Assembly (NCBI GenBank): GCA_029339195.1
Contig: JAPTJF010000014.1
Span: forward strand, 248,001-312,000
DNA length: 64,000 bases
Origin: Micractinium sp. NFX-FRZ
Taxonomy: Eukaryota; Chlorophyta; Trebouxiophyceae; Chlorellales; Chlorellaceae
Direction: 5' to 3'
Shown here: positions 10,178 through 60,856 of the stretch, one piece after another
How the letters are laid out: each line of letters begins with the position of its first letter
Numbering within the stretch: position 1 is the first letter of the stretch
The notes under the pieces: model-generated
What the model was told of the DNA's origin: nothing
The model's input: only the letters and a program-made list of their open reading frames with translations
Databases searched by the model: none
Made by a program: the position numbers and the translations under genes

Positions 10178-13100
10178 ATGTCCTCGGAGGCGGCCCAGCA
10201 GGCGCCCCTGGGTGGCCTGGAGGGTGGGGAACACGGCGCACTGGTGGCTGCAGTGATCGACAATCGTGCTGGCGAGGTGGGGGTGGCAGTCTTGGAGGCG
10301 GGCGGCGGCACGCTGCTGCTGGCGCAGCACGTCGAGGCCACCCGCACCTTTGTGCACACACTGTGAGTCGCCTCCACATCTTGCTGCAGGCACCAGTTCG
10401 TGCCTGCCTCTCACGCACAGCAAATTGCTGCCCAGGAGCAACTCCAGGCTGCTGCTCGTTCTGTATCTGCCCCGCTCAACTGCCAGCCGACACGCCCCCC
10501 TCCCTGCTCGCCGCAGGAGCCTGCTGGCTCAGCACGCGCCACAGCGCCTGCTGGTGGTGGCTCAGGCGCAGGACACGGGCGTGGCCAAGGCCACACAGAC
10601 ACAGTTTGAGCAGGTGGGTGTTGGGGAGCATGCACACGTGCGCTGCCGGCGGCGCCCCGCGGCACCCACCGCCCGCCCTGGCCGCCGCTTAAAGGCAGAC
10701 TGCCCACCCCGCGTGCGTGTCTGCCTGGCTGCCTGCCTGCAGGTGCCGCTGCCGCGTGGAGCCTGGGATGACAGCGCCGGCTATGTGGCCCTCACCCGCT
10801 ATGCCACGCCCGAGGCGCGGGCGTCGCTGGAGGCAGGGATGCTGCAGGCAGCACCCAACGGCTACCTTGCGCATGCGGCGGCGGGCGCGCTGCTCAAGTG
10901 GGTGCTGGAAGCTCAGGGTTTGTCCCCCCGGAGGCTGCATGTTGTTGTGGGTGCTGGGTGCTGAGTCACATCTAGTGCTAAGCATTTGCTGTTCAAGAAC
11001 TGCTCGACAATAATTGGGTACACCGGCAGTTCACAGCGGTCACCGTCACCGGCAGCAACAGGTCGCCAACAGCATGTGGAGCCACATGCACGCTTGTGCC
11101 CAATAGCTGCAAGCGGATTCCTGGTCCTAGCAGCTCTCCCCAGGTCATATGATTGACCCCCCCGGGTGCCCGCCCCTCCCCCCACTCAGCTACCTCGCGC
11201 AAGGTGACAACGGTCTCGGGCTGGTGCTGGCCGCTGCCAGCCTGGCGGTGCGCCACGTGGGCAGCGGCGACGCCCACATGGCGATTGATGCCGCCACTGT
11301 GGCAGCCCTGGAGCTGATCCACCCCATACGGGTGGGGACCTGCTCCACGCAGCTCAGCGGATTCACACTCTTCAGGTGGGTGCTGGGCACGGGAGGAGCA
11401 CGTAGCAGGGACAGGCTGTACTGGCAGGCTTCAGGAGCGTGCGCTGTGCATGGGGGTGTGGTGTCCGGCATAAACGGGTCAAAGCTGCAGTGATCGTTAG
11501 GCACGCAACCAGCACCGGTCCAAGCTTCCCAATGGGGGCTGCGGGGCGGCACATGCTGGCTTCGCTGCCTGCTCTGAACACATGTCGCTCAGTCTCCGCA
11601 TAATCCTGCCAGCTCAGCACTCAACCCAGCATGGTGCTGCCAGCTCAGCAGTCAGCCGTCTCACGATCAAGCGCCTTCTCTGCCTGCCCAGCAGGGTCCT
11701 AAACCGCACCAAGACGCGCTGCGGCTCACGCCTGCTGCGGGCCAACCTTCTGCAGCCGCTACGCGATGTGGCCACGCTCAATGCACGGTGCGCGCGCCAC
11801 CTGCACATGCGCGACAGCAGGGCGGGACCAGCTGGCCTCCTGCCTGTCCAGCAGATCTGTCCCTGCTGCAGCTGGCAGGCACCTCGCTCCCTGCTCCCGT
11901 GGGGTTCCCAGTGCCTGGGTGCTGGTGCCGGTCTCTGCCGCCACCCTCACAGGCCCCGCTCTCTGCATGCGCATGCCAACCCTGCCTGCCCGCCCTCGCC
12001 CGCTGCCGCAGGTATGACTGCGTGGAGGAGCTCCTGGGGGATGATGAAATGGCCTTCAATGTGTCTGCCTGCCTGGCGCAGCTGCCGCCTGACCTGGACA
12101 AGTGAGTGAACGCGTGAAGCTTCTGAAGGGCGTTGATGCTCCCCGCACGTGGGCTGGGCAGCCAGGCAGCTGTGGCACAGCTCGCAAAAGGAACTGTCTG
12201 CTCAAACTTGGCGGCCCCCGGCTTGGAGTTGTACCCACCCTGCACAATTGTACCCGCCCTGCCCCGCCCCGCAGGATGTGCGGCAGCCTGTGCCTGCGCC
12301 CCGCCAAGAGCGACCTGGGCACCCTGCGCCGCATCGCCGCCATGATACAGGCGTGTGGGAGGGGGTTAAGGGAGGGAGGGAGGGCAAGTGCCAGGGAGCG
12401 GCTGCCCATATGAACATGTTGTGCAGGCACCATGCGCCATAGCCCGACACGGCAGCCGCAAACCGACAGGACTCCCTCTGCCAGTGGTGCTTGCCGCGAG
12501 ATGCTGCACACACTGCTGTCACCCTGCCCTCCCCCTCTCCATGCTGGCATTCATCCTGCTGCGCCAGGCGCTGGGCGTGCTGGCCCAGCTGCACTCCGCA
12601 CACACTATAACATTCCCCGCTACCCCTCGCTTCTCTACAGCTCCCAGTCGCTCTTCCTCAGCACATACTGTGCACTCCACGCTGCTCCCTCCCCACACTC
12701 CTATCCCCAGCAGAGCTTCATCCTTCTGCGCGAGGCACTGGGCGTGCTGCCCCAGCTGGCATCCGCTCTGGCGGGCGCGCGCTGCGAGGTGCTGCGTGCG
12801 GTGGGCGGTGCCGCTGGGCACGGTGCCTGGGGCGAGCTGCGTGCCGAGCTGGAGGCGGTGCTGGAGGAAGACGTGGCATCTTCCAAGAACACGTTCCTCA
12901 ACAGGTGAGCTGCTCCTGGATGCATCTCAGCATGGGAAAATAGTGGGACAGGAAGCTGCTTGAAAGAATGTTGGCTGAGCCGGTGCATCCTCCCGGTGAT
13001 CAGCCAAGCGCTTTGAGCGCAGCAGAGGCTGGTGCCAGCATGCAACGGGCAGGGCGAGTGGCCGCCTGGCGCAGCTGGAAAGGTCCTGCTGATAACTGCC

Positions 13101-16100
13101 AACAGCATGGATGCCTGCTGTGCTGTGTTGTGATGTGCTGTGCTGTGCTGCGCTGTGCCCTGCAGGACGCAGCAGTGCTTTGCTGTGAAGAAGGGCGTGG
13201 ACGGGTTCCTGGATGTGGCTCGCCAGACCTTCTGCCGCGTCACTGAGCAGGCGAGTGTGTGGTCCAGGGCATGGGTGGGCGCAAGGGGGAGGTGGTGCAG
13301 GATGCCAGAGAGGCTGCGCAACAAGAGCTGCAACTAATGGAGTCAGCAGCGCAGGGATTCGTCAACTGGTCGGGCCAGTGTGTTGCCCAGGTGTGCCACC
13401 GTGCATCCTGACCCACTGTCTACCCTGGGCTGGAAACTCCCTCGGTCCATTTTATGCCCACCCTGCCCGCCACCCCGCCTCCCCCTCTCTTCTGTCTCCA
13501 CAGGTGCACGAGCTTGCAGGGCAGCTGCGGGAGCAGCACCGCCTGCCAGACATGCAGGTGCGGTACACCGCCAAGCGAGGCTTCCACCTCCAGCTGGGCG
13601 GTGGTGCCGGCGGCGGCCCCGGCGGGCGCGGCGGGCGTGGCGGGCGCGGCGGCGGCGGCGGTGGGCGGCAGAAGCACCCGCGGCACCTTGAAGAGGATGG
13701 CACCAAGGAGGGGAGCGCCTGGGAGGAGGATGGCAGCGGCAGGCCGGAGCCCAGCGTGCAGCAAGGGCAGGAGGCATCGGCAGCGCATGGCGGCGGCGTT
13801 CGCGGCGGCGGGCAGGCGGGCGCAGTTGTGCGCATGCCCCCTGGGTTTGTGGTGCTGCAGCGGTCGGCGCGGGCGGTGCAGGCCACTACCAATGAGCTAA
13901 ACGCGCTCAACTCTCGCCTGAGGGACGCCTCCAATGACTGCCTGGTGCTGACGGAGCAGGTAGGCTGGTGCCGCTGGCTGGGACGGGATGAGGTGGTCTC
14001 GAAGGCTTAGGGTATTGTTGTGGGTCGGCAGGGAGGGGCACCTGGCACTGTGGATAACACTCCCACAAGCAGGCCGCTAGCACAGGCATATGCCAACCGA
14101 TCCCCCAGCTGCCCTGCCCCGCCCTGCCCCGCACTGCTCTCTCCACCCGTTCGTCTCAGACGTCCACCAGGCCTGCCTATTTTGTCTGCCTGCCTCCGCC
14201 TGCCAGACCCACGCTGCCACCTCGCCCACCCTGCCTCCCCCTGCCACCCCGCCCCAGGTGCTGGAGGGCCTCTCCTCACGCGTGGTCTCCACCTACCTGC
14301 CCCTGCTGCACCGCCTGGTGGACGCCATCTCCCTGCTCGACATGCTGGCTGGCTTCAGCCTGGTTGCCAGCGGCAGCGGCAGCAGCAGTGGCAAGGGGGG
14401 CAAGGGCGGGGCGCTGGCCGCCACAACCAGCTCAGTGCGGCAGTATGTGAGGCCCGTGCTCACAGAGGGTGGGCCTATAGCGCTGGTGGAGGCGAGGCAC
14501 CCGGTGCTGGATTGTTTGGACGAGGCGTACCAGCCCAACGACACGTTCCTGGCGCTCAACTCCTCGTTCCACGTCATCACGGGTCAGTGGGGGGCGGGAC
14601 AGGAGCGGGGATGGGCAGGCTGTTGGCAGAGGGTGGTTGCCGGTTGCTGCCGACGTGTAAAGTGGAGGCTTCTGAGAGGCTGTGATCTGGGCCCTGCGGC
14701 GGGGGCATGGAGCAGCGTGTCATCGGGGAGGCAGGCAGGGTGGCCGCTGCCCTCCCTGAGCACACTGTGGCACGCCTCCCCTGCCACACGTGCTCAGCTG
14801 CTCGCAACGCCCCCGCATCTTGTGTGGCTGATGGCGCCCAAGACTGCCTGCCCCTCGCTGCCCATGCGCCAACATGAGCGGCAACTCTACCAACCTGTGC
14901 CAGGCGGCCGCACTATCTGTCAGTGCCTTCCCACTGCCATTCATGCCTTGCCTGCAGGCCCCTTCATCAGCGGCAAATCCACTTACCTGCGCCAGTTTGC
15001 TGCGACATCCCACCTGCCTCCCCACTGCTGTTCATCCGCCTGCAGGCCCCAACATGAGCGGCAAGTCCACCTACCTGCGCCAGGTGGCGCTGTGCGTGGT
15101 GGCCGCCCAGGTCGGCGCCTACGTGCCCGCCGCCTTTGCCAGCCTGCCGCCGCGCGACCGCCTGCTGTCCCGGCTGGGAACAGGGGACTCACTGGAGACC
15201 TGCTCATCGTCCTTCATGGTGGAGATGCAGGTGGGGCGTGGCCCGTGGTGGGAGGGTGGGTGGGGGGTGGGGGGTGCCTGGCTGAGGGGAGGTGGAGCCG
15301 TGTGTGGGTTTGTGCTGGCCGTGGTGAGTGCGGTGGGGCGGAAGGGGGGTATAGGGAGGAGGGTCCTTGGACACCTGCATACTACGTGCGGGTCCTGGCT
15401 GCGATCAGGTGGGTGTGGCAATTGAAACACGGGCTTGCGGTGTTGATGTGGTGTGGTGTGGGCACACTGGAGGAGGTATCCTAGCAGCTGGGGGGACCCA
15501 GTCACCTCCCCACCGTCTGGCAATTCTCCTGCCTTCCTTGCACTCCTTAAACCCCCCTCTCCCCACCTCCCTCTCCTCCTGTCCCCCCACCCTCTTGACT
15601 CTGCCTCTCCACGGCAGGAGGTGGCCTACATCCTGGGCGCCGCCACCCCCAACAGCCTGGTGCTCATCGACGAACTGGGGCGGGCCACCAGCACCGCAGA
15701 CGGCGTGGGCATCGCCTGGGCGGTATCTGAATGCCTCATCGGGGTGGGGGTGCCCACCCTGTTTGCCACCCACTTTGCTCAGCTGACTGAGCTGGCGGCC
15801 CTGTACCCAGCGGCCAAAGCGTGGCACTTTGACGTGGGTGACGTGGCGGGGCGCCGTGCGCTGGATTTCTCGTGGAGGCTCCAGACGGGCGCCAGCGGGG
15901 CGGGGCATTACGGGCTGCTGCTGGCCGGGGCGGTGGGCTTCCCGCCGGAGGTGGTGGCGGCGGCAGAGGAGGTGGTGCAAGGTGGGTGCAGAGCGGGTTG
16001 GTGGCGCGGGCATGGGGCAAGGAGGGGCAAGCGCAGCAGGGGGCGTGTCATGCTCTGCACGCTTGCGCCCGTGCACACCATCATGCAAGCAGCAACAGTT

Positions 16101-16664: not shown

Positions 16665-16667
16665 ATT

Positions 16668-18716
16668 ATGAGTGTCACGGCCCTTGCAGACGGCAGCCTA
16701 CGCTCCCGCGTGAGCGCGAGAGTGGGCCTTCTCGGTAACCCGAGCGACGGCTTTGGCGGGGCCGTGATCGCCTTCAGCCTGGCGAATTTTGCTGCCGAGG
16801 TGCGGCGGGAAGCCTGATGGAACCACACCTGACACCCTGGCCCGCCTCCCGCCCGCCGCCCGCTCACCGCCCCCTGCGCGCACCCACAGGGCAGGTCACG
16901 CTCACCCCCTCGCCCACCCTGCGCTTTCTGCCCAACCCGGAGTGCGACCCCCAAGAGTTCGAGGGTCTTCAGGGCCTGGTTAGCCACATCCGCAGCTGCG
17001 GTGAGGGGCCCGGCCTGTGGGGCCTGTTCAATGCGCCAATGCATGCACAGCAAGCTGCCAGCGTGTGCCGCCACACTTAGCCCCCATCACACCTACTGTG
17101 TCTCCCTTCCCAAATGTCCCGCCTAAGGAGCGGTGAGCCAACCTGACCACACCTCTATTGTCAGGCAACTGAGGCGGCGTGCGCACCCTGCAGACCTCCC
17201 TTCCAAGGGGGTGCGTCTGCATTAGCAGAGGCTGGCCGTTCCCACCTTGCTTGTAACTCCTCCACCCGCTTGCAGGCTACTATGGCGGCGTGCGCATCCT
17301 GCAGGCCATGTGCAAGCGCTTCTGGGAGCGCTGCCAGCAGGGCGGCATCCAGCTGGCGCCAGCCGGGCCCTTCTCTCTCTCCTACACAACCGACATACCC
17401 CGACAGGCAAGCCAGCTGGGCTGTGTGAGGGCCCTGTTTCGGGTTGCGAGCTGCGCAGCTCATGTGCCGTGTTATTCAGACCTGCCCAGCCCCACCCACC
17501 ATATTTGCAACCCTGGCGTCTAGACCCACGGTGCCTCCCGCTGTCCCGCACCAATTGCCTCCCTCCCTGCCTGCCACAGAGCGGCCTCAGCGGCTCCTCC
17601 GCCCTGGCCTGCGCCACGCTCAACTGCCTGCTGCGGCACTACGGGGCAGAGGGTCAGGTGCCCGTGGTGGTGAGGCCCCAGCTAATTTTGGAGGCGGAGC
17701 AGGAGCTGGGGATCACTGCAGGGCTGCAGGACCGCGTTGCGCAGGTGGGGTGGGGTTGGGTGGGGTTGAGGTGGAGTGGGCAGACGGGCGAGTGGGTCCT
17801 TGCCATGCTGCCCGCCGGCTTCCGTGCATGCTTGCTTTCCCGCCTGCTCTTCTACCGCCCAGTGGGCCCTCCATCCCTCCCGCCCACACCCTCTCCTGCC
17901 CCTCTTGTGATCCCCAGGTGTACGGCGGCCTGCTGCACATGGATTTTGACCCAGCATACATGCAAGCCCGCGGGCACGGTCGCTACCAGACTCTCCACCC
18001 CGCCCTGCTGCCGCCCCTGCACCTCATCTACCCCGCCGCCCCACCCGACGCCGGCAAGGACAGCGGCGTCGTGCACTCCGATGTAAAGCAGCGCTGGCTG
18101 GCGGGAGATGAGGAGGCCAGGTGCGGTTGGTGGAGCATACATGCAGGGTGTACCACGACTGAGCCCTGTTGCCTGTGTGTGCGTGTGTTCTGGCTCAAGC
18201 GCCACAGCGACTCGCTTGCCAATGGGGCGGAGCTACAAGTGCACCGCATTTCAAGTTTTGAATTTCGATCCATCTGGTCCCGTTGACTGCTCCGTGTGCT
18301 TCTCATGCCAAATGCCGACCTGCTGACACCCACTGAAGCAATCCATGCTGCGCTGCAGGGAGGCGATGGCGCAGATTGCGGTGCTGGCGGGGCAGGGCAG
18401 GGAGGCCCTGCTGGCGCACAACTACCGCCAGCTGGCGGAGCTGATGCGCCAAAACTTCCGGCTGCGGCGGCGCCTGTATGGGGACGCTGTGGTTGGGGCT
18501 GGCAGCCTGGCAATGGTTGAGGCTGCAGAGTCGGTGGGTGCTGCAGCCAAGCTGACGGGCAGCGGAGGTGCGGTGGTGGCACTGTGCCCCGAGGATGTGG
18601 ACAGCGGCAGCGAGGAAAGTGGGGAGCAGGCGGAGCGGCTGCGGGCGGCGTGCCGGCAGAGAGGCCTGCGGTGTGTGCGTGTGCAAGTGGGGCCGCAGCT
18701 TCACGCGTGTGGATGA
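16668..18716 (+). CDS. GLCAK: glucuronokinase (GHMP kinase)
   Basis: Phosphorylates D-glucuronate at C1 with ATP. The product is turned into UDP-glucuronate, a precursor of cell-wall sugars, in the plant salvage route from myo-inositol. Six exons (16668-16799, 16895-17000, 17276-17406, 17580-17744, 17918-18120, 18359-18716) give 364 residues, the usual length. Diagnostic stretches shared with plant glucuronokinases are ARVGLLGNPSDGFGG, GYYGGVRILQAMCK, SLSYTTDIPRQSGLSGSSA (the GHMP ATP-binding loop), ELGITAGLQDRVAQVYGG and AAKLTGSGGAVVALCPE. The start is the first ATG; an in-frame TAA sits 3 bp upstream of it. The third intron begins with GC. A decoy copy of the exon 3 start lies 111 bp upstream of that exon. 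The start lies just 121 bp after the MSH4 stop. Confidence 0.95.
17163..17310 (+). repeat. duplicated 5' edge of glucuronokinase exon 3
   Basis: The acceptor and first 30 bp of exon 3 (from 17276) recur at 17163-17195. The copy keeps the AG acceptor and the block GGCGGCGTGCGCA, but has a TGA where the exon codes Tyr, so its use would truncate the protein. Confidence 0.85.
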
Positions 18717-19001: not shown

Positions 19002-19033
<32 letters not shown>

Positions 19034-29582: not shown

Positions 29583-31121
29583 ATGGCGGCAGGCGCCCAG
29601 CAGGCGCTCACCACCCAGCTGGTGGACGTGCTGCAGAGCCAGTGGTCTGATGAAACATTTACCAGCTACTACGACCAGGGCTGGTGCCTCAACCAGAATG
29701 TCACCTACAGCCACCGTGTGGACGCTGAAGGTGTGCGGGCAGCCGGGCAGGGTGGCGGCGGTGGCTGGGTGGGCAAGCGGAGGCGCGCTCTGCATGCACC
29801 GTGCTGCTGCCGTGGCTGGCCATGTCCAAGTGCGCTGACTATACGCTGCGGGGGAGTCAGGGGATGCTGCTGCCCAAATTGGTGGCACCGGTGTCTGGGC
29901 GTGGCACTGCCCCCTCCCAACACGCCTCCTCCATTCGCACCGCACCCGCCCCGCACGTCTGGCCCCTCCTGCAACTCTGTCCACTTCAAACAGTACCTAC
30001 CCTCCCCTCTTCATCCCTCCCTCCCCTTCGTTGCAGACAATTTCAACTTTTGCTCCGTGCCCCTGAGCGGCTCCGATGCCTTCCTCTTTGCCGCCCTGGC
30101 CCTCCTGGTGGGGTCGGTGTGCATGGGCAAGCTGCAGTCCGTGTGGGTGCTCATCGTGGGTGAGTTGCTTGCTGCATGCTCTCTTTGTTGAGTGCGTGGT
30201 TTGCAGCGTGTACGCCTGCCAGTGCTGTCAGCTGGGCGCGCACTGTGGGGCAGCCGACGCCGGCCTGCTGCCACTGCACGTGTGCCTGCTGTGCCCATAC
30301 CCAGCTGCCAGTGCCTGCCGACGGCGCCTGCTTGCTGCTCGAAACCTTGAACCAATCACGTTGTTGTGCTGCAGGCGGCTGCCTGGGCATCCTGAACTAC
30401 GAGGTAAACCTGTACCGCCTGAGCAACGCCATCTCCCTGTGGCTGGGTATCCAGCCCCCCGACCTCTTCTTCTACGCATTCCTCCCGCCCCTGCTGGTGG
30501 ATGCCGCCCTGCGCCTCGACTGGTACCGCTTCTCAAAGGTGGGGCGGGGTGGGCGGGGCAGCACATGCGGGTTTGCTGGCCCTGCTGGCAGGCGCAAGGC
30601 AGCGGCTTGGTGCGTTTTTCCCGAGTGCATGCTGAGCAGAGTGGGAAGCAGGCCTCAGACGCCCTTCCTTTCCGGGCCCCCCGACACGCGTTAGCCCCAC
30701 ACCTCTCCCCCTGCTCAACTCCTCTTGCCCCCTCCCCCCCGCTGCAGCTGTGGCCCCACATTGTTCTGCTGGCGTATGGCATGGTGCTCATCAATGCCCT
30801 GGTCCTGGCGCCCTTCATCCTCTTTGTGCTCGGCTTCTCCAGCCGCGGGTGGGACTGGATCCACGGCGCCGTGCTGGCTGCCATGCTGGCGCCCACCGAT
30901 GCGGTGGCAGGTGGGTGCTGGGCGTATGAAACGCGTGTTTAGGCTATAGACGTTACCAGGCATGGGAACTTGTGCCCGCTGCTGGCGGGGCCATTGCGTG
31001 CATGTGCTTCTGTGCTGCGTGCCCTGCACCCGTCCGCCTCTGCCTGCCTGCCCCTCCCGCCCCACATGCACGCACAGTGACGGCCACCCACAAGGTGCCA
31101 CTGTTGCAGAAATTGCCATGA

Positions 31122-31153
<32 letters not shown>

Positions 31154-33972
31154 GCCCCCGGTCTGCCTTTCTGCCATGCCTGCAGTGACGGCCATCCTCA
31201 AGCGCCGTGTTTGCAGCTGGATTGAACTGCCTATCCCTGCCTGCCTGCCTGCCTGCCTCGCCCCCTCGCCTGCAGTGACGGCCATCCTCAAGGCGGGCGG
31301 CGGCCCCGAGGGCATGGTGGTGCTGATGGAGGGGGAGGCGCTGCTGAACGATGCCTCGGCGGTGACGCTCTACACCGGTGGGTTGGTAGCTGGGGTGTGG
31401 GCAAGGCGGCCAGAGTGCGCAGGTGGATGGAGCCGGAGAGTTGGGCGGGCGGGCAGCAGAGCGCGGCACGCACGCCGCACCTCCCTCGATTTGTATCGTG
31501 CTGCCATCCCTCAGCGCCCCGCCTCCCGGCTCGCACTCACGCCTGGCCTCCCACCCACCTGCTGCCCACCACTCCCATTCTGATTGATGGAATCTTCCAC
31601 TCCCCTCCTGTGAGCAGTCTTCCTGCACATCCTCAAGGCATCCTCCCCGGACGACATGCCCTCGGTGCCCTCCCAGATCTGGCCCATCATCCGGGACATC
31701 CTCAAGTGAGGGAGGGAGGGAGGGAAGGAAGGGCAGGTGGCAGGGAGCAGAGGAGCATTTGGGAAAAGTCGGGAGGGGCAGGTGGCATCCGGGACGTACT
31801 CAAGTGAGGGAGGGAGGGAGGGAGGGGCGGGTGGCAGGGAGCAGAGGACCAGTTGGGAGGTCAAAGGAGGGGCAGGCGGTATGTGGGACATGGGGACATG
31901 GGGAGTGGGAGGGAGGGGCAGGGGCCAAGGAGGCAGAGGGTCATTTGAGAAGCTGCAAAACTGGTGAGAGGCCGGCGCAGTAGATCCCAGACGGGCCGGC
32001 ACCGAGAGCTGTTGCCCTCGCTTACCGTGCAGGCTGACGGGTATCGGCATGGGCGTGGGCCTGGCTTTTGCCTGGGCGCTGGGCTACCTGCTCAAGCTGC
32101 TGCGCTGGCGGGGGGCGCGCCCGTACATCGAGTCCCTCGTCGTGCTGGCCACCGCTTACCTGGCATTTTACGTGGCACAGGCGAGAGGGACGCATTGAGG
32201 GGTTGGTCAAGTGGCAGACGGAGGGGGGTGCCCAGACATCAAGGACCTGGCGGTGCTGGCCACTGTGTATCTGGCCTTGCCTGTGGCCCAGGTCAAAGGC
32301 TGCATTAGGACGGGAATCAGAGCCCGGCTTGGGCTTGCACTGAGTGACTTACTAGTAGTGCTGGCCTCACTGTGTATTGATGTTTGAATGGCCGGCCTGG
32401 GGTACTAAGCCCCGCTCTCCTCCCTCTACCTGCCACTGTTTTGTTGTTGCTGCAGAGCCCCGCCAAGGGGTCGGGCGTGATTGCGGTATGCTTGTTTGGC
32501 CTGTATGGCAGCGCCAGCGGCCACTGGGGCATGCTGGCCACGGATGCAGGTGAGGAGGGGGGAAGCGAGCCGTGGGCTATCAAGAGGGCAGGGCAGGGCA
32601 GCAGGGGCAGCAGTGGGCAGCAGAAGGCAAGGGCAAGGCAGCGCAGGGTGGCGCAGGGCAGGGCAGAGCAGGGCAGGGCAGGGCAGGCTCCTGACTTGGC
32701 TGTTAGTGTCTTCAAGGGCTGCAGACCTGCACACCGCCCAGACTGCCGGCGCCGCGCGACACTGCCCTTCACCCACACTGCCCCTGCTGTGCCCCTTCCC
32801 GTGCAGAGAGCGGCATTCACGAGGCCGTCTGGGACACCGTTGCGTTTGCAGGTGCGGTGGGTTGGGCGATGTTCCGGCGCTGCGCCCTCGTACTTGCACA
32901 CTCCACCTGGTGCCCCCAGGCTCAAATGCACCTGCACCTGCCCTCCCGCCTTGCCTGCCCGCCCCGCAATGAACCCTCATCTCAAACCCCACCATGCCGC
33001 CTCACCGCGTCACTTTGTCCCACCACTTCTCCACTTCTTTCCTTCCTGGCCTGCCCTCCTGCAGCCAACGCGCTGGTCTTCTTCTGGAGCGGCATCTCCT
33101 CCGTCAACTTTGTCGCCAGGTGCGTGAGTGTCAAAGTCGTGGGGGGCAGCAGGTGCGCCCGGCTGGCACGGCTGGCCTGCCCGCCTGCTCGTCGCCTCTT
33201 TCATGTTCACTGCCAGGTGAAGGCAGGCAACCCCAGCTAGACACAGCAGGGCCAGCCGCAGCACGTGCCCCTCCAACCTTTGCTGCCCTTGGCCTGCTTT
33301 CCCAACGTTGCCACCCCTTCTTCGCTTGGCCCACCCACTAATATAACCTGCCCCCCTCCCCCTCCCGCGCCTCCCACCCTGCAACAACCACGGCACACCT
33401 CGGCAGGCCTCCCGCTACAGTGCCCTTCCGATCACACCCTGCCACGTTGGTGCCCAATCCTCTCCCTTGCAGGTCCGCCTCCCAGCTGAACAAGAGCGCC
33501 TGGAACTACGGCGCCATCCCCATAATCTTCATCTTCATGTATGCCTTCAGAGGTGAGCCACGGCGACAATTGAAAAGACCTACCGGTAGTTCGATGAAGG
33601 GACTGTGACAGCTGCGCCTGCAACGACCGCACTGCTGGTCTTCAGCACGCGCCTTGCTGCCTGGCAGAGTTGCTGGCGAGGGGTTGCGCGGATTTCATAA
33701 ACGTCGCTGCCTCGCACCCTGCCGCCCGCATGGGCAGCTCACCGCGACCACTGTGCCTCCGCACCCCCGGTCTCCCCGCCAACAGGTGCCTGCATGGTCG
33801 CCTTCAAACCCATTTTCAAGCTGCTGGGAACCAGTGAGTGCCGCTCCTGATCGGCTGCCTTCAAGGGCAGAGGCTGCCTGCCCCTGGCGTGCACAAGTAC
33901 ACCCCGTACTCTCACCCATGCGACAAGTACAGGGCGGGCATTGCCAGCAACCTCTCTCTCAATCTCACTGCG

Positions 33973-34043
<71 letters not shown>

Positions 34044-37000: not shown

Positions 37001-40000
37001 CCACACTGCAGCTACGCCTGTGACAGGGCGATTGAGCACGCCGAGGAGCACCCCAGCGAGCCCCTCCAGCTGTGGCAGTTCCTGAACCAGGAGATCCGGT
37101 GAGCTGGCAGCTGAGCTGGCAGGGCGGGAGGCGCTGAGTTGGCTTGGTGATGGGGGACGGTGACTGCCTCACTGCCTGCCTGCTGGCGCCCTTTGCAACT
37201 GCTCCCGCACTGGAGCGCCAACTCCCTGGCGGGCCTTGCTGCCCCGCCTAGCTACCTGCCTGACAACCCCATGCTTCCCCACTCTCCAGCCTGCCGCCTC
37301 GCCTGCCTGCTCAATCCCCTGCTTTCTCTTCTCCTCTCAATCATCCGCCTCCTCATGTGCTCCCGCCTCCCCTCCCTCCTGCAGCGGCAACTGGCTCGTC
37401 TACTCCCTGGCCTCCCTGCTGGCCGGCACGCTGCGCCTGCACCGCGCCTCGCCCTCCTGGTGGCGCCGAGCCTCCGCCCTGCCCTTCCGCCTGTTCACGG
37501 GAGTCCTGCGCAAGAAGCTGGGGAGGTGAGCGGGCGGTATGAAGGGCAGCTATGCACGTGCGGGTGCGGGCTGTGTTGCACAGAACAGGCCGGGGGGACA
37601 GGTGGGGGCGCCGGCGCCAAATCGGGCGGAGCCGTGGCCGCTTGTGGGCTGGACTGATTGCCATGCCACTCCCAGCTGGGCTTGCCCAAGTGCTGGCCCC
37701 CTCTGTCGCGCACCGCCCAGCGCCCAACCCTGAACCCTGCCCCACATCCCCGCACGATTGGTTTCACAACATCCCCACGTGTGCTGCAGCAAGATGCTGA
37801 TTGCTTGTGAGGCAACGGTGGAGCTCTACATGGGCCTGGCCGCCAGCCCCCAGATGCAGGTGTGCGACGTAACAACATCACAACGGCGCCAACGGAAGGG
37901 CGGGGCAGCCACGAGCGGGGGCAGGGTGCATATGCATTGGGCCCTCATCTACCGACATCACGGTTCACGTTTCTTGTGACCCTGCTAAACGTGACACGTG
38001 CGTTCTTGTGTCCGCTCGCCCGCAGTGGGTGTACTTTGGCGAGGACGTGCCTGTTGAGCTTCTGGAAGAGGTGCAGGGGCAGCTGCTGGGCGCCTACGAG
38101 TTCATCCAGGACAGGGAGGCCGAGGCGCCGGCGCAGTACCGCGCAGTACAGGTGTGCGTTGGGAGGGTTGTTTGAGGGCGTGGGGTGGGGTGGTGAAGTT
38201 GAGGCCATACCCAGGCTTGATGCGAAGGGGACAGCCGCCGGAAGTGTCATCCCGCAGATGTAACGCCAGCAGCGCACCTTCACCGCCGACCTCTGCCTTC
38301 CCCCCACCCCCTCCTTTGATGTACTTCAGTCGTACCGCGCCGCCATGGCGGTCCTCCGCCAGCAGCGCACCTTCACCGCCGACCTGTACGAGCGGGGAGC
38401 GGTGGACGAGGACGAGCGGGAGGCGCTGGCGGCGGCGGTGGATGCTGCCATGCGGCACCTGGACATGACGGGTGGGTGGGCGTGGTGGGCGGGTGGATGG
38501 GTGGATGCGGGCATGGCCCTGCATGCAGGTGCATGTGGGGGCCTGCCATTGAACGGTGTGGCGCACGGAGCAGAGCAAAGGGTGTGAGGAGGGTGCCTCA
38601 GCAGCAGCTTGGAACTTTCCCCGACGCTTGCTCCCCGCTTGGCCGCCCACCACCTCACCCCGAACCGTGGCCGCCCCGCCCGCCCCGCCCGCCCCCGCTG
38701 CAGGCCCCATCTGGCGCCCCCCCGTGCCTGAGCAGGTGCTGCGCAGCCTGGACATTTTCAAGGCAGCGCCGCCAGAGCTTACCGACGCCCTGCTGCGCCA
38801 GTCCAAGATGAAGGGTGATTGCCGCCCTTGCTCGCTACGCCCCGCCTGGAGCACCCCGCCACCCCGCCTGCCCAGCTCTGTTGTCTGCCGTGGCACCCTT
38901 GCCCCCTGCCCTCCCTCGCCCCCCGCCCCGCCCTATTGTGTTTCGCTCTTCAATGCCCACCTTCCCCCCCCCGCCTGCAGAGTACCGACCCCAGGAGCGG
39001 GTGTGGGCCTCTGAGGAGCCACAGGGCGGCCTGTTCGTGGTCCTGTCTGGAGTGGTGAAGGAGGAATATGCCGGGGCCGACGGCGGCGCCGGCGCCTCCC
39101 AGCTTCGGGTAAGGAGAGGCGGGGCGGGGGGGGCACGGTGGGGCGGGGTAGGGCAACCTGGCCTTCTCGTTGTGAGGCTTGCATGGGTGTGGAGGCTGCG
39201 TCGCAGGCCCAGCGCTGTCCTTGCAGCTAGTAACCACCTCTGCCCATGCGCCCCTGTCTGATGCGATTGTCACCTCCTTCCTTCCATCGCCCCCCCTCTT
39301 CCCAGGGTGTGGGCTCCATCTTCGGCGACTTTGCCGGCCTCTGCGGCGGCGGCCGCCTGCCCGGCCGCGAGCTGGTGGCGGCGGTGGGCAACAGCTTTGG
39401 GCGGGGCCCCCTGGTCTGCCACCTCCCGCCCGCCGCCCTCGACACCCTGCACACCAGGTGTGGCGGGAAGGTTGCCACCGGTGCCGGTCTGGCCCCGCTC
39501 GCTGTCAATCCTTGCAGCTGTTGGCAGGCACGAGGCAGGGGTGCCTACCTGGCCGGCCTGTCAACCCCATTTCCCGTACTAGCATCCAGCACACTCTAAC
39601 TCAGCAGGGCCTCTGCGCTGTCCTGCCGCCCCGTACCGCAGGGCTGCGGCTGGCGACGCGGCAGCGGCTGCGCTGGAGGCGGAGCTGCTGCGTGTGGCGG
39701 CCATGCACATGCTGCAGCACATGCAGGGCGATGTGCAGGGCGTGGTCGGGTGAGGGGGGCACCAAGGCTGGGGGGCCACCAAGGCACCCGCCCAGGGGCC
39801 AGGGGTCAGTGCAGCCAGCGGGACTTTGTGGATCTGGCATTGGCTCCCATGTGCACCTCACTTGTGCATGCGCCCTCCACCCATCGCCCCCGCCACGCTC
39901 CCGCCCTCCCCCCTCCCCCACCCCACCTCCACTGCCCACCGTGCCCCTTCCCCTCCCCTCCCCCTCTCCAGGTCCTATTTGGAGCGGTACCGCCCGCTGG

Positions 40001-41190: not shown

Positions 41191-43957
41191 TCACCTGTCT
41201 GCCGGCTGCGGGCCTTGCGCAGGCCCGGGAGCTGGCTCTTTGCTGGGCGCTGCTGCTGCGGCTGTCGCTGCTGCTTCTTCCACTGCTTCGGCTGCTGGCT
41301 GCTCATCTGGCGCAGGGGCGCCGGCCTCTGCTTCAGCTGGCATGGGCGGAGGCGGGCGAGGCTTCCGGCGGGTAGGTGAGGGGGGCGGTAGGGGAGGGTC
41401 CAGCTCAGCGAGCTGCTCATCAATCCACTGCCTGCGGAGGGCAGGGCGGAACAAGAACAAACACAAAGCGTGAAACAAAGAGCGTCAGTGACAGCGCCCA
41501 CAGCAGGGAACACCAAACCGTGGCTGGCTGTGCTGTGCTGTGCTGTGCTGTACAGGGGGACTCGAAAACCCGCCTGCCCTCCTCCTGGCCAGCGTGCCCT
41601 CCCTGCTCCCTTGCAGCTGATCGAGCTCGCCTGTAGTGCGGAATGAAGGTGAACACGCCGGGCATGCCGGGCAGGGCGCAGGTGGGGAAAGAGAATGACG
41701 TGATGCCCAGCTGGACGTCCTCCGCCGCGCTGCGCCCCGTCAGCAGCAGCGGGCCTCCCGAGTCGCCGAAACAGATGTTGCGCTGCGACTGGAGGCCTGC
41801 AAATAACACCCCGGTTGGGCATGGAGATGTGCTCAGACAGGGTGCAGGGGCAGGGGCTGTGAGGGTAGGCAGGCGGACGTCAATTGGTGTCTGCATGCGC
41901 AGCTGCCGGGCCCACTGTCACGGGACGCAGTGGTCATGCCCCTGCTGTGCCAGCTGGCGACCATACCATGCCAGGCAAGTGCGTGTCACACCTCGCCCAC
42001 CTGCACACATGTGGCCCGCCCCCAGCAGGGAGGGGGCTGCCCCTGCATAGCTCCACTGCTGCCGGCACAGCTCCCGGCTCACAACAGGCAACGCCAGGTC
42101 CTGCACGGGTGGATGAGGTGAGGTACCGGTAGGCAGTACGTTACGTGAAGGGCGCTACCGGAACAGCTGCCGGCTCTGAGCAGGCAGCGCCGCGTCCCGC
42201 AGGGGTGGCCCATGGGAGTGAAGGGGCCGGCGCTCGTAGGCGGGGCCACCCGCCAGCCTGTTGCTGCCACCCACCCGGCCCCCCTGCCCAGCCACCCCGG
42301 CCCACCTGCAGGCTGTATGCTGGCTGGCTGTTGTCAGAGTCTGTGGAGCCCCACCCCACAGCATGCAGCTCAGTCGCGTCCTTTGGGTAGGGGGTGGTCT
42401 CTGCAGCAGAAGGGCAGGGGGCAAAGGGAATCATTTTTCAGCACGTGTGGGCCTGAGTGTGGGAACCTTGCCAAGTGCATGCAGACAGTCGCCGGGACTT
42501 TCGGGGTAGCGTGTGCTCTTTGTGGCGCAGCAAGGGGCGAGAGGTGGGGCCAGAAGCAGTGAGGGAAGCAACCGTGGGCAGGGCAGAAGCTTAAGGGTGG
42601 GGCTCATAGGAACGTTCTGTGGGCAGCGCCTGCCCCCAGCAGCGCAGCCCCACCCTTCCCCACGCTGCCCTGCCCCGGAAACTGCCCTTCCCATCCGGGC
42701 CTGCCAGCCTGGCCTGACCTGGAGCACCGCCCTGGCACCCCCACCCACCATTGGCCAGCGGCACAAGCGGGAAGGCCTCCGAGGCTGGTTCATCAAGCTG
42801 GATCAGGGCGATATCGTTGGGAGAGGTGGGCTGGTCCTCAGGAAGCTGAACGTATCCAGGGTGCGTCACAATGCGCGATGCCCGGCGCAGCTCAAACGGA
42901 TGCTGCACAGCAGTACAACATCCAGTGGGTCAGATAGTTGATGGTGAGGGGTGGTCGGCAGCCAGGGGCCGACAGCTAGCAGCAGCTGCGGGGCTTGCAG
43001 CAAGGGCGCTGCAAGTGGTGGGGGTGGCAGCTGGGGACAGCCAGCGCGGCAACAGCTGGCAGCAGCTGGGGGCAGCTTGCTGAGCAAGGGGGGGGGCGAG
43101 GCCACGCATGCACGCTGGGCACTGGGGTCCCGCCCAGCGGGCGTGCACAGCAGCAGTTGGAAGCCCTGCAGGCACGGCACATGAGCGGGGGAGACGGCGC
43201 ACGAGTGCCTGGCCGCAGAAGCACCAGCTGCCGCTCACCGACACCGCGGCCCCCTCCGTCTGCAGTGCCACTTGTCGCTCACAAACCCACCTTCAATGCC
43301 TCGTCTGTCAGAGGGTTGAAGGCTCCAATGCGCAGGAACACGTTTCCGTTGCCAGGCCGAGCTAGCGCCACGCACTACAGACCCAGCAGCAGTGGCAGCA
43401 GCAAGGGTCGGGGGCGGCATTGGGGCGACGGCATTGGGGCGGGCAGAGCAGGGGTGGGGCACGACCCGCACACAGCGGCAATGACCTGCACGCGTCACAG
43501 GGCAAAACTTCCGTGCCGTGTCTCCAGGACCGGGCCTTTCCGTGCCTAATGCATGGCCGCTGCATCACGAGCTCACATGTCCGGCTGTGAGGACGACGGA
43601 GCGGGAGATGAGGGTGCCGCCACACCCCGCCAGCAGACCCAGCTTGTCATCGAGCAAGAAGTGGATGCGCACAGCATACGCGTATCTGCTTTCCTCTCGT
43701 GCCCGCCGACCGCCCACCAGCAGTTGTCGGGGGATCACTCTGCATCAGGGAGAGAGCTGGAATTAGGAGCCAGAGCCACAGCCGGCCGCCCCGCCTGCCC
43801 CCGAGTGCCTGGTACCGGCGCACCTGGCTGCCCTTCCGGTCGCTCTCGCCCCCTCGACGATCGCTGAGTGGAACAGAAGCAGAAGCAGGAGCAGCAGGGG
43901 GAGGGGCTGCTGCGGGCGGCGGCAGCCGCCCACATGCCGCTGCAGATGCAGCAGCAT
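41191..43957 (-). CDS. secreted S1 (chymotrypsin-fold) serine protease, triad intact
   Basis: Eight exons (43957-43824, 43739-43577, 43374-43291, 42902-42749, 42400-42306, 42100-42001, 41796-41631, 41431-41191) give 378 residues. An N-terminal poly-Leu core (PLPLLLLLLLLFHSAIVEG) is a signal peptide. LLVGGRRA is the activation site equivalent of 'IVGG'. Catalytic His99 lies in LTAGHC, with the intron falling between His and Cys. Asp157 lies in SPNDIALIQL and Ser256 in CFGDSGGPLL. Residue 250, at the trypsin 189 position, is Asn rather than Asp, so cleavage specificity is not clearly tryptic. MCAG and PGVFTFIPHYRQWID are the usual C-terminal landmarks. A Pro/Ala/Glu-rich tail of about 70 residues follows the domain. 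The last intron has a GC donor. It is divergent from the pseudoprotease, 256 bp away. Confidence 0.93.
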
Positions 43958-55330: not shown

Positions 55331-55445
55331 CTGCAGCTGAAGAGATGCACAGGTGTGGCGCTGGGCGGTACACCACGCGCACAGGGGTGTGTGTGCGATC
55401 TGGTTGAGGGCACGGCACGCTGTAGCTCCCCCTGCGCGGGTGCAG
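55311..55445 (-). repeat. duplicated 5' edge of methyltransferase exon
   Basis: On the minus strand the exon start GAGAGCTACAGCGTGCC (from 55330) recurs as GGGAGCTACAGCGTGCC about 100 bp upstream (near 55430), after a GCGCAG acceptor-like end. Confidence 0.82.
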
Positions 55446-56278: not shown

Positions 56279-59200
56279 CTAGCCATCGCCATTGCTGGCA
56301 TCCCGCAGATCCCGCTCATAATTGAGCACGCTCGTTCTCTGCCCTGGCCAGCCAGAGGAGGCACGCCGTGCAGCTGCAGGAGGCACCTGCCCGCCTGCCT
56401 GTCGCTGGCTGCCCGCTCGCGAGGCGCTCCTGCCGCTTGGGGGCAGCAGCCGGTTTTGGCTGCCTTGCGCCTGCAGCTCCACTCCCTGGCTGTTGCCTGC
56501 GCTGATCCCTCCACGGCTCTCAACATCGTACTGGCTCAGCCAAAGGCCGGAACCTCCTGCTGCCGCTCCGCCTGCTCCGCCGCCGCTGCTGGCTGCGCTG
56601 TGCAAGGGGCGCAGGCCGTGAGGGCTGCCGGCGTTGACTGCCCGGCAGATGGCCCCCGCCCCAAGCTCCAGAGGGCTGCCAACGGCCTCTGCGGGCTGGC
56701 CACTGGCACGGCCGCCATCGGCTGCAGTGCGCACGCGTGCCAGCAGCGAGTGAAGGCCCGGAGAGCCGCTGCGCGCGCTGCCACCACCGTGGCGGCTGCC
56801 GCTGGCGCTGGGGTTGCTGCCGCCCACGCCGCCGCCGTGGTTTGGGATTGCGGCTGCGGCAATGTCCACGCTTTTAGAGCGCTGCGGCAGGCCCAGGCTG
56901 CGCGCCTTGGGTGTGCCCCCCAGACTTCCCCCCACGCTGCGGCTGCCGCTGCGACCGTCGGTGGAGTGCCGGCGCGGCGAAGCCACCACCTCCTGCACAA
57001 TCTCCTCCACAGTCGTGGCGTCGATGCGCCTCAGGCTCTGCATTTGCGACAGGTACTCCCACGCCAGCCGCCCGCCGTGAGCGCTGGCCTCGTTTGCCTC
57101 CAGGGCGCTCCAACCGCTGGCGCTGCCCTCCTGCTTGATGGCTGCCGTCGCCTTGGCCGTCTTGAGGGCGATCAGACGGTTGCGGGCCTGCAGGTGAGAG
57201 GGCAGGGAAGGAGGGCAGGGTAGGAGGGTGCAGTGAGGAAGGGTGGGTGGCGGCAGTGTATGGATGGGGAGGTGGAGGAGGCAGCACTGCCCGGCGGGGC
57301 AGGCTGCGTACGAGCTTTGCCTGTACGCGGAAGACTGCAGGGCAGGGTTGGCAGCACGCAGTGCGAGGCCAGGCCTGCCCATCCGGCCGGGTAGGGCAGG
57401 CCTGTCGAGCAGGGCAGGGCAGGCAGGCATGAGGGCAGGACAAGCAAGGCAGCCAAGCGCAGGCAGGGAGGGCAGGCAAGCAGGCAGTCAAGCGCAGGCA
57501 GGCAATCAAGCGCAGGCAGGCAGGCAGGCAGGCGGTGGGTCGGCGCACCATGATCCCTGTGATGGGCAGCTGGTTGTGGCGCAGGCCGGGGGGCGGGAAG
57601 GGGTGGAAGCTGCGGCGCAGCCAGCGCCAGATGCCCAGCACAGACCCCTTTTGCGACTCGTAGCTGCGCAGCTCGGCGGTGAAGTCGCGGCTGCGCCCGC
57701 CTGCAGCAGTGGGGAACAGCAGGCGGCATGGGGGTCACAGGGAGGGGGGGTCAGTTATTGTGGAGCAGAAGGCGCTTAGGGAGAGGGTCTCATGGAAGGA
57801 GGTCGCTTAACAGGAACGAATGGGATCATGCAATGCAGCAAGACGGGAAAGTGAGGTGGCCCGTCTCCTCACACCCAAATTGCACGCTTGCCCACCCAGC
57901 CCCGCTAGCCTGCATCGCAGCTCAACCACCCGCCCACCTTCACCAACCGACTTGACATAAGCACACGGCGCCAACACACACCAGCACACGTCCTGAGTGC
58001 ACCTTACCGCCCTCCTCACCATACAGCACGTACTCCGAACTCCAGCTCCCCATCTGCTACCGCCCTACCAGCACGCCCCCCCACCCCCACCCCCACCCCC
58101 ACCCCCCACTCATCCACTTGTTGATAAGCGAAGGCACGGGCCCTGCTCACCATTCAGCACACACTCCGACTCCTGCTCCCCCCATCCACGCTCCTATAAA
58201 ACCTGCCTGCTGCCGCCATGCCAACAAAACCACCCACCCCCCGCCCTGCTCACCGTACAGCACATACTCCGACTCCAGCTCCCCCGTCGCGCACAGCAGC
58301 GGCTGCGCCTGGTGGCTTCGGTTGCCGTAGTACAAACCTAGCTGGCACAGAGCAAAGGAGCGCCAGAAGCTGCCCACTGCAGGTGTAACGGAAGGGCCCA
58401 GGGGGCGGCAGGCGTGACGAGACTTGGCGACAGGCTGGCGCAGTGCACCGCAAACCCTGCAGGCTGACGGTGCGCGCCCCGGGCTGCACCGGAGCCTGCA
58501 TCGTCATGCTGATGTGAACAGGGTGCACCTGCGGGCGCGGTGCGGGTGGCCACGGCCCGCCGTTTGCCTCCTTACTGCGCTGCAGTCCCCACCCAACCCT
58601 GTCGAGAATCAACCAAAGGGGGGGGCGCACCTGCGGGCGCGGTGCGGGTGGCCATGGCCGTCAGATCCTCGGCGCTCCAGCTGTAGAGCAGGCAGTCGGT
58701 GGTTGCCTCCACGCACAGCAGGTGCGCCTCGGTCTTCTCAAAATGGATGTAGATGCCAAACAGGTTGAGCAGGTCTGCACAGCAGGAGAACAGGGATTGC
58801 CAATCAAGTTATGCAAGTACCTTCCACACTAGTTGAGCAGGCGTGCACAAAGAGTGGGTGGGTCAGTAGGGTGGGTGCCCTGCAATTTGCCCCCTGCTGG
58901 CCCCCTCCCCTCGGAGCCCCATCCAGAGATGCTAAAGCACAGCAGCTACATGCCGATCCGCTCCCACAACCCCTGCCATCACCACTCCGCCCCGCCTCCA
59001 GCCCCGCCCGGGACCCCCCCCTGCCACTCCCCGCCGCCCTCCCGCCACGCACTCTGGTCGAAGCAGCAGCCGCTGTACTGCAGGCGGGGCGGCTCTTGGA
59101 TGCCGTGGTAGGCATGCTGCAGTGAGGCCAGCCCCTCCACCAGCACATAGAAGCGCAGGTGTGCCTCGTGCGCTGCAATGATGGGCTGCCCCGCCTTGAC

Positions 59201-60856
59201 CCGCTGCCAGCTGCCATACTTGAGCACCTGTGGACGGTGGAGGCCAGGGAGACAGCCGCTGTCAGCGGGAGCCGGAAGCAGGGGAGGTTGCGAGGACACA
59301 AGCATGGTAAGGGGGCATGGCAGGGAGCACGGTAGGCTGTAGAGGACTGAGAATGGGCTGGGCGGCAAGCAGGGAAGGGAGTGGACCTGGTAGTGGGGTT
59401 AGGGTTGACAGAGCGCGGGTCAGGGGTGGCAGCGGGAGGGGTGAGCAACAGCTGAGCTGAGTGAGGTAGGCAAACACAACGCAACTCTCGGGCAGCCACT
59501 GTGTGCGCTGGGGTGGGGGCCGCAGCAACCGCGCTGGCTGCATGCCCAACAATGTGTGGCAGCTGGCGTGAGGTGCAGGGTCAGCCCCCACAGCCCTGGC
59601 GCGCCTTGCCTGCTTGAACTCGAGGCGCCCCATGCCGCTGCGCCGGTAGAAGAAGCGCCTGCGGCAGCAAAGGAGAGGGTGGGGCAGCGGGCAGGTTAAT
59701 GGGGTGGCTGCCGGCCTTGCTTCCTGTCCTGCGCCCCTCCCACTCGCACGATCTTGACAGCTGAACGCACTACCCCCGCTGCTGCTGCCCCTCCCATGCA
59801 TGCCTTGCCATTGACTAGCCCACCACGGCTGTGCAGCTGCTCCTGCAACTCACCACCTCTGCCACTCTCTACATCCGCAGCTCGCCACAGCTGCTGCCCA
59901 TCCTCCCACAGAACTTGATGCGTCCACGTCCACATCACTTGCACCCACGTGCCACTGCCCCCCAACTGCCCCACCCTCCTCTGCTGCCCACCACCAGCTC
60001 CAGCTGCTGCCCTGCAAGCCTGTGCACACACTCACCACAGCTGCTCCTCATCCTCTGATTTGAACTTGATCCGCCGCTCGTCCCAGAGCAGGCGTGTGAG
60101 GGAGAAGCCGTGGAAGAGGAGGCAGAGGCAGGCCCAGGTGAGGGTGTCTGCTGCCAGGCCGCCGGTGGGCTCCATGGAGGGCCACTTGGGCAGGCCCAGA
60201 GAGGCAGCTGCAGAGGCCAGCGGGGGAGGCCAGGAGGCACCCTGTCTTGGGCGTCTGCTGCACACATTTGCTGCTGCAGCTGTCTGCTGCAGGCCGCCAG
60301 TGGTCCCCGAGGAGTAGGCCACCGGGGCAGGCCCAGCCAGGGAGCCATGTGGGGCCAGGCAGAGGCGCACAGGGCACAGCAGCAGGCATGCAGCAGCAGG
60401 GCAACCGAGGCGTCAGCCGTCCCCACACGTCCCACGACTCGTGCTGGCCCCCATGCAAAAAGTGAGCGACAATGGAGCAGGAGGCGCTCACAAATGAGTA
60501 GCCATAGGTAGGCGAGGCACAGGAAGAGGCGGATCAGGAGGACGTCTGACACTGCAAGGCAAAGACAGAGGAGGCATGAGGGGGACGCCCACGTAAGCGG
60601 GCACGGTGCTCTGGTGGCCTGGGCACCATAGGGCTCTCAGTGCACGCGTCTGCAACAATGCCGGATTAGCAGTGCGCTTGTCGCAGTGGCATGGCGTTAA
60701 GGACGGCGCCGCACCTCTGCCGTTGCACCGCACCCACCACCAGGGCCATGCGGGGCTGCCTCATGCGCATCACCACCCCTGCTCACCGAGGGCCGCCAAA
60801 AAGAAGGAGGCATTGGCCAGCTGTCCTGCTGGGCCGCTTGGGAGGAAGACGGTCAT
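56279..60856 (-). CDS. Popeye-domain-like membrane protein
   Basis: Nine exons (60856-60787, 60551-60492, 60207-60036, 59658-59610, 59227-59053, 58774-58631, 58376-58254, 57700-57549, 57187-56279) give 617 residues. QLANASFFLAALVSDVLLIR and LFLCLAYLWLLI, then LTWACLCLLFHGFSL, form the short N-terminal membrane bundle. LLWDERRIKFKSEDEEQLWR and MGRLEFKQVLKYGSWQRVKA, FYVLVEGLASLQHAYHG and VEATTDCLLYSWSAEDL match, in order, the 'RPVKFS.ELEDLY', 'GEVRTLETG', 'LLLSGRVRVSYEG' and 'TDCRYVSW' regions of Popeye (POPDC) proteins, a cAMP-binding fold. The Popeye phosphate-binding 'DSPEW ... FQVT' is not conserved; NLLNLFGIYIHF stands there. A 300-residue Ser/Gly-rich tail follows. Intron 4 has a GC donor. 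Assignment is by motif order from memory. Confidence 0.68.
57424..57540. repeat. GGCA-rich tandem repeat in Popeye-like intron 8
   Basis: Repeated GCAGGCAGG units and two copies of CAAGCGCAGGCAGGCA fill about 115 bp of the intron. Confidence 0.8.
58017..58286 (-). repeat. triplicated 3' edge of Popeye-like exon 7
   Basis: On the plus strand CACCGTACAGCACATACTCC (58251, exon end plus donor) recurs at 58148 and 58017 with a few changes each. Spacing is 103 and 131 bp. Each copy keeps GTGAG or GTGAGC on the sense strand, so each has a usable donor. Between them a CCCCCA repeat (58075-58108) would be G-quadruplex-forming in the sense RNA. Confidence 0.92.
58525..58665 (-). repeat. duplicated 3' edge of Popeye-like exon 6
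   Basis: The exon end and donor at 58627 (plus strand GCACCTGCGGGCGCGGTGCG...) recur at 58525. 28 bp are identical before the first change. The offset is 102 bp. Confidence 0.93.
59886..60340 (-). repeat. copies of both edges of Popeye-like exon 3
   Basis: The 3' edge (CACAGCTGCTCCTCATCC at 60036, plus strand) has a copy at 59886. The 5' part (coding LGLPKWPSMEPTGGLAAD) has a decayed copy at about 60270-60335, which would read LGLPRWPTPRGPLAA. So both flanking introns carry exon-derived sequence. Confidence 0.78.

Follow-up and report, generated by a model that had tools for sequence, protein, structure and literature searches.

Why should the edge of an exon, together with its splice site, reappear in the intron beside it? 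The question is raised by a 64,000-nucleotide stretch of the green alga Micractinium sp. NFX-FRZ (the window: contig JAPTJF010000014.1, positions 248,001 to 312,000, from a 66 Mb draft assembly in 838 contigs), in which a sequence-only reading had noted such copies in several genes, among them MSH4, a glucuronokinase, an antiporter and a Popeye-like gene. Edge copying is real and is not confined to the window. The explanation that we consider probable, with considerable room for doubt, is recurrent local tandem duplication of units that span existing splice junctions.

Gene structures were predicted from sequence with a home-made, splice-aware hidden Markov model (HMM) gene finder, trained on the window and on twenty 10-kb stretches of other contigs (L009-L028). 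The HMM converged on a CAG/GTGAG-like donor and a CTGCAG/G acceptor (the slash marks the exon boundary), and it placed nine predicted gene models with 119 predicted introns in the window, 113 of which were kept for tests. Introns containing N or adjoining a predicted exon shorter than 20 bp were dropped, leaving 424 in the window and the twenty stretches together. A further 19 loci were drawn from similarity searches and are not a random sample. All scans together cover about 0.32 Mb of the 66 Mb, and thresholds and simulation settings are our own choice.

Thirteen junctions of the window, chosen to correspond to those of the sequence-only reading, were tested: MSH4 exons 8 and 12, the glucuronokinase, antiporter exons 5, 6, 7 and 23 (the last counted as exon 22 in the sequence-only reading), a trypsin-like gene, the methyltransferase part of a gene model and four edges of the Popeye-like gene. 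As a control, each exon edge was also compared with 2,000 introns taken from other loci. At 13/13 junctions the true intron outscored all 2,000 swapped ones (each p≤0.0005). Weak among the 13 are antiporter exon 6 (score 26, against a swap maximum of 25), antiporter exon 7 (score 32, 71% identity) and the methyltransferase (15 exact bases, score 30), and one extra weak edge of the window adjoins intron 36803-37011 (74%). The claimed recurrence of exon edges and splice sites is thus borne out, as are the described copy sizes, the same orientation and the wide range of ages. The claimed offsets of 80-180 bp describe the nearest copies in the window (88-167 bp), but farther copies reach 180-234 bp.

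The excess over intron controls extends beyond these junctions. When the 45-bp exon-only edge of every predicted exon was compared with its own adjoining intron (Smith-Waterman score threshold 30), a same-orientation copy was found at 56 of 848 edges of the 424 introns, against a swap expectation of 0.55, and a reverse-complement copy at one. The 19 further loci gave 18 of 194 edges with a copy (0.18 expected) and no reverse copy. Lengthening the edges to 60 bp gave 79 copies in all, belonging to 60 edges and spread over 57 of the 424 introns: roughly one exon edge in fourteen carries an intronic copy. The copies are unevenly spread among loci (chi2 38.7 on 20 degrees of freedom), L020 being the richest.

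The copies share a simple anatomy. The nearest copy lies 70-150 bp from its source at 48 of 60 edges, and for the 40 edges with at least 80% identity and an offset within 60-160 bp the mean offset is 103 bp (standard deviation 19). Offset and copied length are nearly uncorrelated (r=0.10), and copies match their exon at 71% to 100% identity. They occupy the intron on the edge's own side (53/722 edges) and almost never in the next-but-one intron (2/618); none was found in the intron across the exon (0/476 edges, exons of at least 90 bp only), a weak test in that most exons are too long for a 100-bp offset to reach beyond them. Matching falls away steeply inside exons: 46 of 836 30-bp exon windows matched at 0-30 bp from the junction, 7 of 746 at 30-60 bp and 1 of 561 at 60-90 bp. 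Of 2,994 30-bp intron windows compared with the rest of their own intron, 41 matched, arrays included.

At some junctions, for instance at two loci outside the window, whole units are repeated. L020 1163-1777 is an array of near-identical units of about 107 bp, each with about 77 intron and 30 exon bases, and L016 4132-4710 is an array of 113-bp units; such arrays repeat an existing splice site together with flanking intron. We noticed no new intron at the arrays, and made no systematic search for new introns. Copies occur at four successive splice edges of a putative importin-like gene at L020 560-2400, and a 100-N assembly gap lies within one array of this region. In the window, an intergenic repeat at 9781-9931 has the typical spacing (123 bp); it may belong to an intron or untranslated region that the gene models miss. 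L020:3280-3386 and L020:5552-5656 are dispersed repeats; for the former, many among the matches listed share a 3' end near query position 3376-3379 and have variable 5' ends, as truncated retroposons do.

We propose that a unit of typically ~70-150 bp, made up of some 20-50 bp of exon edge and the adjoining intron end, would be duplicated head to tail. Extra copies would end up upstream of the real acceptor at acceptor edges and, at donor edges, downstream of the real donor. Splicing would presumably continue to use the original outer site, leaving the protein unchanged and turning the extra unit into intron. Repeated events would build arrays and lengthen introns. Each copy would then decay nearly neutrally, its exon-derived part remaining recognisable longest because the partner of that part is held by coding selection. 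Candidate events at the DNA level, from the literature and general knowledge, are the fill-in of staggered breaks and replication slippage.

Introns that host copies are longer: the median length is 238, 331 and 473.5 bp for introns with none, one and two or more copies. Zero added length is rejected for the 38 single-copy cases (Kolmogorov-Smirnov (KS) p 0.0006). The best fit of the added lengths tried was 60 bp (KS p 0.23), followed by 90 bp (0.08), with poorer fits for 30 bp (0.007), 104 bp (0.01) and 130 bp (0.0001). Single-copy introns in which only the edge is recognisable have a length excess of 74 bp (confidence interval (CI) 23-100), or 64 bp (CI 13.5-90.5) with a stricter baseline.

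Several observations weigh against duplication of whole junction-spanning units. Among 58 testable nearest copies, 16 show significant homology (p<0.05) in the rest of the unit: 9 of the 26 whose exon identity reaches 88% and 7 of the 32 older ones (with best-scoring instead of nearest copies, 12/58, and 7/26 at ≥88%). Simulated tandem duplication at equal neutral rates left such homology in 91% of young and 55% of old pairs (90-94% of young pairs in another run); these simulations treat acceptor edges only, and their age range, indel rate, unit lengths and 45 junction copies are our choices. The young copies 38152, L013:7480, L024:1153, L021:7190 and L023:710 begin 15-40 bp inside the predicted exon. 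The length excess of edge-only introns is consistent with an addition of just the copied piece (mean 35 bp) and does not reach the spacing (108 bp), and longer introns may simply hold more copies (size-biased baselines 279-338). The weakness of the opposite-side test belongs here as well, as does an excess of copy-to-exon substitutions at codon position 3 (41%), for which silent change in the exon and mild constraint are both possible causes. Of the sequence-only reading's local tandem duplication at junctions, local, direct recurrence of many ages is supported, and tandem structure is supported for a subset. This would mean that intronic parts diverge several times faster than exon-derived ones, or else that some events copied the exon edge only.

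So few pairs show rest-of-unit homology that duplication of nothing but the exon edge must be taken seriously as a rival, if on balance an unlikely one. A break in the intron would be healed by synthesis-dependent annealing or polymerase-theta repair, which copies a nearby exon piece with filler, and only the exon edge would ever have been duplicated. This accords with the 17 of 26 copies of at least 88% identity that show no rest-of-unit homology, and with 17 of 24 copies of at least 90% identity in which the gap and the outer flank both fall within the 95% null when compared with 1.5 kb of surrounding sequence in the same orientation; eight such stretches match only themselves, plus the source exon for five (simple repeats and common words skipped). 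The edge-only length excess likewise fits the copied piece alone, and among the cases of Pace et al. proximal copies show microhomology, deletion and 1-68 nt of filler (PMC2671141). Such repair is harder to reconcile with orientation: judging from one inverted copy in that study, the class would allow inverted copies (PMC2671141), and reverse-complement copies are essentially absent here (1/848 and 0/194). Also counting against it are the nearly length-independent spacing, the full-unit arrays at similar spacing, the poor fit of a 30-bp addition beside that of 60 bp and, for what that weak test is worth, the absence of copies across the exon. What speaks for a junction-spanning unit is the nearly length-independent spacing together with a single orientation, copies on the edge's own side and the greater length of host introns; the edge-only majority would on that reading have begun as full units.

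Tandem duplication might instead be blind to junctions, occurring everywhere and staying visible where exon is included, one partner there being held constant. This too we think improbable, though it would explain some of the exon-edge excess without any junction mechanism. If non-coding sequence diverged three times faster, simulated rest-of-unit homology would fall to 39% of young and 16% of old pairs, and at five-fold to 32% and 13%; another three-fold run gave 49-58% and 8-15%, and the observed 9/26 and 7/32 come near these values. Under a looser repeat rule, intron-intron repeats (52) nearly equal exon-intron repeats (53), many of the former being copies of copies in L020, beside 11 exon-exon and 6 intergenic ones; under the stricter rule, the 68 local repeats listed comprise 50 exon or junction, 15 intron-intron, 2 intergenic and 1 mixed.

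What speaks against junction-blind duplication is the scarcity of repeats elsewhere. At equal rates and with 45 junction copies, 24.4 interior and 33.2 intergenic repeats (~58) would be expected; a three-fold rate lowers this to 6.3 + 9.7 (16.0), a five-fold rate to 4.4 + 6.1 (10.5) and an eight-fold rate to 7.3 in all. Outside copy-bearing introns, at offsets of 60-160 bp, we observed 6 interior (intron-intron) repeats and 1 intergenic one, and five of the six are L020 exon-edge copies outside the hit set, set aside by eye, which leaves 1 + 1. If these are retained and 7 are counted, the eight-fold rate would fit; 60 edges were actually matched, against the 45 entered, and using 60 would raise the expected numbers. 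In the reported data for Auxenochlorella, which we assume to be a relative, heterozygosity in introns (4.02%) is barely above that at 4-fold sites (3.44%), making large non-coding rate factors unlikely there (PMC12636532).

Junctions are thus likely to be favoured, either in the birth of copies or in their retention. A stronger version is possible, although we think it doubtful: junctions would be mutational hot spots, at which a boundary-tied process repeatedly duplicates about 100 bp, introns grow stepwise from their ends and splicing reliably ignores near-identical decoys about 100 bases away. Intron ends are GC-skewed in the 424 predicted introns (+0.41 just after donors, -0.43 before acceptors), the average intron being G-rich for ~80 bases past the donor and C-rich for ~100 bases ahead of the acceptor; one may speculate that such skewed ends expose single strands co-transcriptionally, as an example of a boundary-tied process. 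The first 80 intron bases are more skewed at donor-side copies (0.345 vs 0.207, p 0.005), one of 28 uncorrected comparisons, of which some others also reach p<0.05; at acceptor-side copies the skew is no different. Composition was rejected as the driver. Helical phasing of the offsets was rejected also (the best of 20 periods, 11.4 bases, has a Rayleigh p of ~0.02).

We wondered whether the copies serve as alternative exons, alternative splice sites or selected decoys, and find this very unlikely. The splice dinucleotide (AG, or GT/GC) is intact in 36 of 50 junction-reaching copies, and copies with at least 85% exon identity have site scores near those of true sites: medians of 5.2 for acceptors (n=13; true 6.9, random AG -1.7) and 4.7 for donors (n=9; true 5.1, random GT 0.5). 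However, about 37.7 intact dinucleotides are expected under neutral decay at the rate of the exon part, and among young acceptor copies AG persists in 5 of 8 cases against 7.4 expected. Inclusion would preserve the frame (a length that is a multiple of 3) in 17 of 50 copies and would add a stop in 24 of 50. Substitutions between copy and exon are spread over codon positions 1, 2 and 3 (84, 87 and 120; n=291), with 107 synonymous and 184 not, and 18 of 20 gaps are of 1-2 bases. A coding or other function is not supported by these data. Frame selection on the offsets was rejected (mod 3 classes 27, 21 and 22), and compensation for weak splice sites is not supported, the true sites next to copies showing no loss of strength (p=0.18 and 0.34). 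The copies look like close-to-neutral non-coding debris, and the predicted outcome looks like longer introns with decoy splice sites.

That the copies are an assembly artefact or transposon/introner insertions is scarcely credible, in spite of the draft state of the assembly and the 100-N gap inside one L020 array: copies differ from the exon by 0-29%, the searched stretches have unique flanks, no second haplotype was found when one was looked for at 30000-34000 of the window, and the eight copy stretches searched match only themselves or their source exons, with no multi-gene family (simple repeats and common words skipped).

Table 1 Exon-edge copies and source edges in the window (positions within the 64,000 nt).
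Feature	Position	Strand	Offset (bp)	Identity	Remarks
MSH4 exon 8 5' edge, intronic copy	12550..12599	+	167	88%	
MSH4 exon 8, source edge	12714..12904	+			Aligns to MSH4 of M. conductrix, M. tetrahymenae and Trebouxia
MSH4 exon 12 5' edge, farther copy	14866..14908	+	180	86%	
MSH4 exon 12 acceptor and exon edge, nearer copy	14950..14995	+	88		Homology extends into pyrimidine tract
MSH4 exon 12, source edge	15046..15230	+			Predicted exon, aligned to relatives' proteins
Glucuronokinase (GHMP kinase) exon 5' edge with CAG, copy	17162..17196	+	111	84%	
Antiporter exon 5 5' edge, farther copy	31078..31095	+	198	89%	
Antiporter exon 5 acceptor and edge, copy	31178..31202	+	90		Exact over 25 bp
Antiporter exon 6 3' edge and donor, copy	31786..31823	+	98		Source 31688-31725; within 94-bp tandem repeat 31688-31891
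Antiporter exon 7 3' edge, copy	32236..32291	+	111	71%	Decayed
Antiporter exon 23 5' region, copy	38264..38292	+	93		Exact over 29 bp; source 38357-38385; begins 27 bp inside predicted exon
Trypsin-like exon 5' edge and flanking intron, copy	42154..42208	-	96	80%	Source 42058-42112
Methyltransferase-part exon 5' edge, copy	55414..55428	-	100		Exact over 15 bp; weak
Popeye-like exon 3' edge and donor, far copy	58007..58051	-	234		Source 58243-58285
Popeye-like exon 3' edge and donor, near copy	58140..58182	-	103		Source 58243-58285
Popeye-like exon 58631-58774, 3' edge, copy	58529..58557	-	102	97%	
Popeye-like exon 60036-60207, 3' edge, copy	59886..59931	-	150	77%	Decayed
Popeye-like exon 60036-60207, 5' edge, copy	60284..60344	-	137	79%	Decayed

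The host genes in Table 1 are supported to differing degrees. MutS has Pfam support in the window (MSH4), and the Na+/H+ exchanger, trypsin and GHMP kinase score above the Pfam cut-off in the window proteins; Popeye, at 27.2 bits, is just under its cut-off of 28.1. For the window MSH4 the nearest proteins are that of M. conductrix, at 70%, and that of M. tetrahymenae, at 75% across 62% of the query. The exon 8 edge is alignable in 3/5 aligned relatives' proteins and the exon 12 edge in 4/5, a count that leaves out protein P0122, which ends short of exon 12. At exon 8 the E and P of the exon recur in all three aligned relatives, and the intronic copy carries Q and A at these positions. A YchJ-like protein of the window is 86% identical to that of Micractinium sp. 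CCAP 211/92 and 79% to that of M. conductrix. Some predicted models look like fusions, namely of MSH4 with the glucuronokinase and of the methyltransferase with the Popeye-like gene. Two adjacent trypsin-like genes occupy 41333-43935 and 44285-53379, the first checked against Pfam and the second judged by eye; two Kunitz-type inhibitor domains are apparent, also by eye, at the end of the model that begins with the second. A run of 71 C at 33973-34043 within an antiporter intron is possibly real and possibly an assembly feature.

Stepwise growth from splice junctions, if true, would be a testable mechanism for long introns. The relatives of Chlamydomonas are described as having conspicuously long introns, with a driver of length that is probably ancient and an advantage that is unknown (PMC8226300); for the separate algal lineage examined here, at any rate, stepwise growth would be a candidate. 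The copies are also a rich set of natural tests of how a spliceosome distinguishes a true site from a nearly identical decoy some 100 bases off. Our literature search, by titles and abstract beginnings and with most subscription journals outside its scope, returned no description of such junction copies.

The closest known case is the potato RdRp gene described by Ma, Lan and Niu in 2016, in which a single tandem duplication across a boundary gave rise to a new intron and a further 83-bp duplication occurred within the first intron (PMC4974935). As in the alga, the potato duplication crosses an intron-exon boundary and includes a putative branch site, pyrimidine tract, acceptor and exon edge; unlike that single case with its new intron, the algal events are recurrent, affect donors as well as acceptors, form arrays and were not noticed to make a new intron. 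The Rogers model, as presented there and with Drosophila cases in PMC2891723, likewise has a tandem duplication, of an AGGT-containing exon, whose extra copy is silenced by splicing; its unit is coding and yields a new intron, whereas the algal arrays include an existing intron end. Introners reshape introns too, in green algae among others, but as described they are inserted in many genes (PMC9860276), while the algal copies are local.

Known repair products offer a second comparison. Schimmel et al. (2021) describe small tandem duplications, an established class, that arise by fill-in at breaks with complementary overhangs followed by end joining; these are head-to-tail and in the same orientation, like the algal ones, although the passages concerned make no mention of splice junctions (PMC8355091). 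The repair duplications of Pace et al. (2009) are also short local copies, with filler or microhomology and with a few donors that contain exon parts. In the set they report, however, the average separation is 1.2 kb and cases within 50 bp were removed, against ~100 bp in the alga, only 8 of 824 donors are listed as an exon or partial exon, and an inverted exon copy is included, where the algal copies are direct and drawn from exon edges (PMC2671141). Set beside known small tandem duplications, the algal copies are unusual in their density and in their placement at splice junctions.

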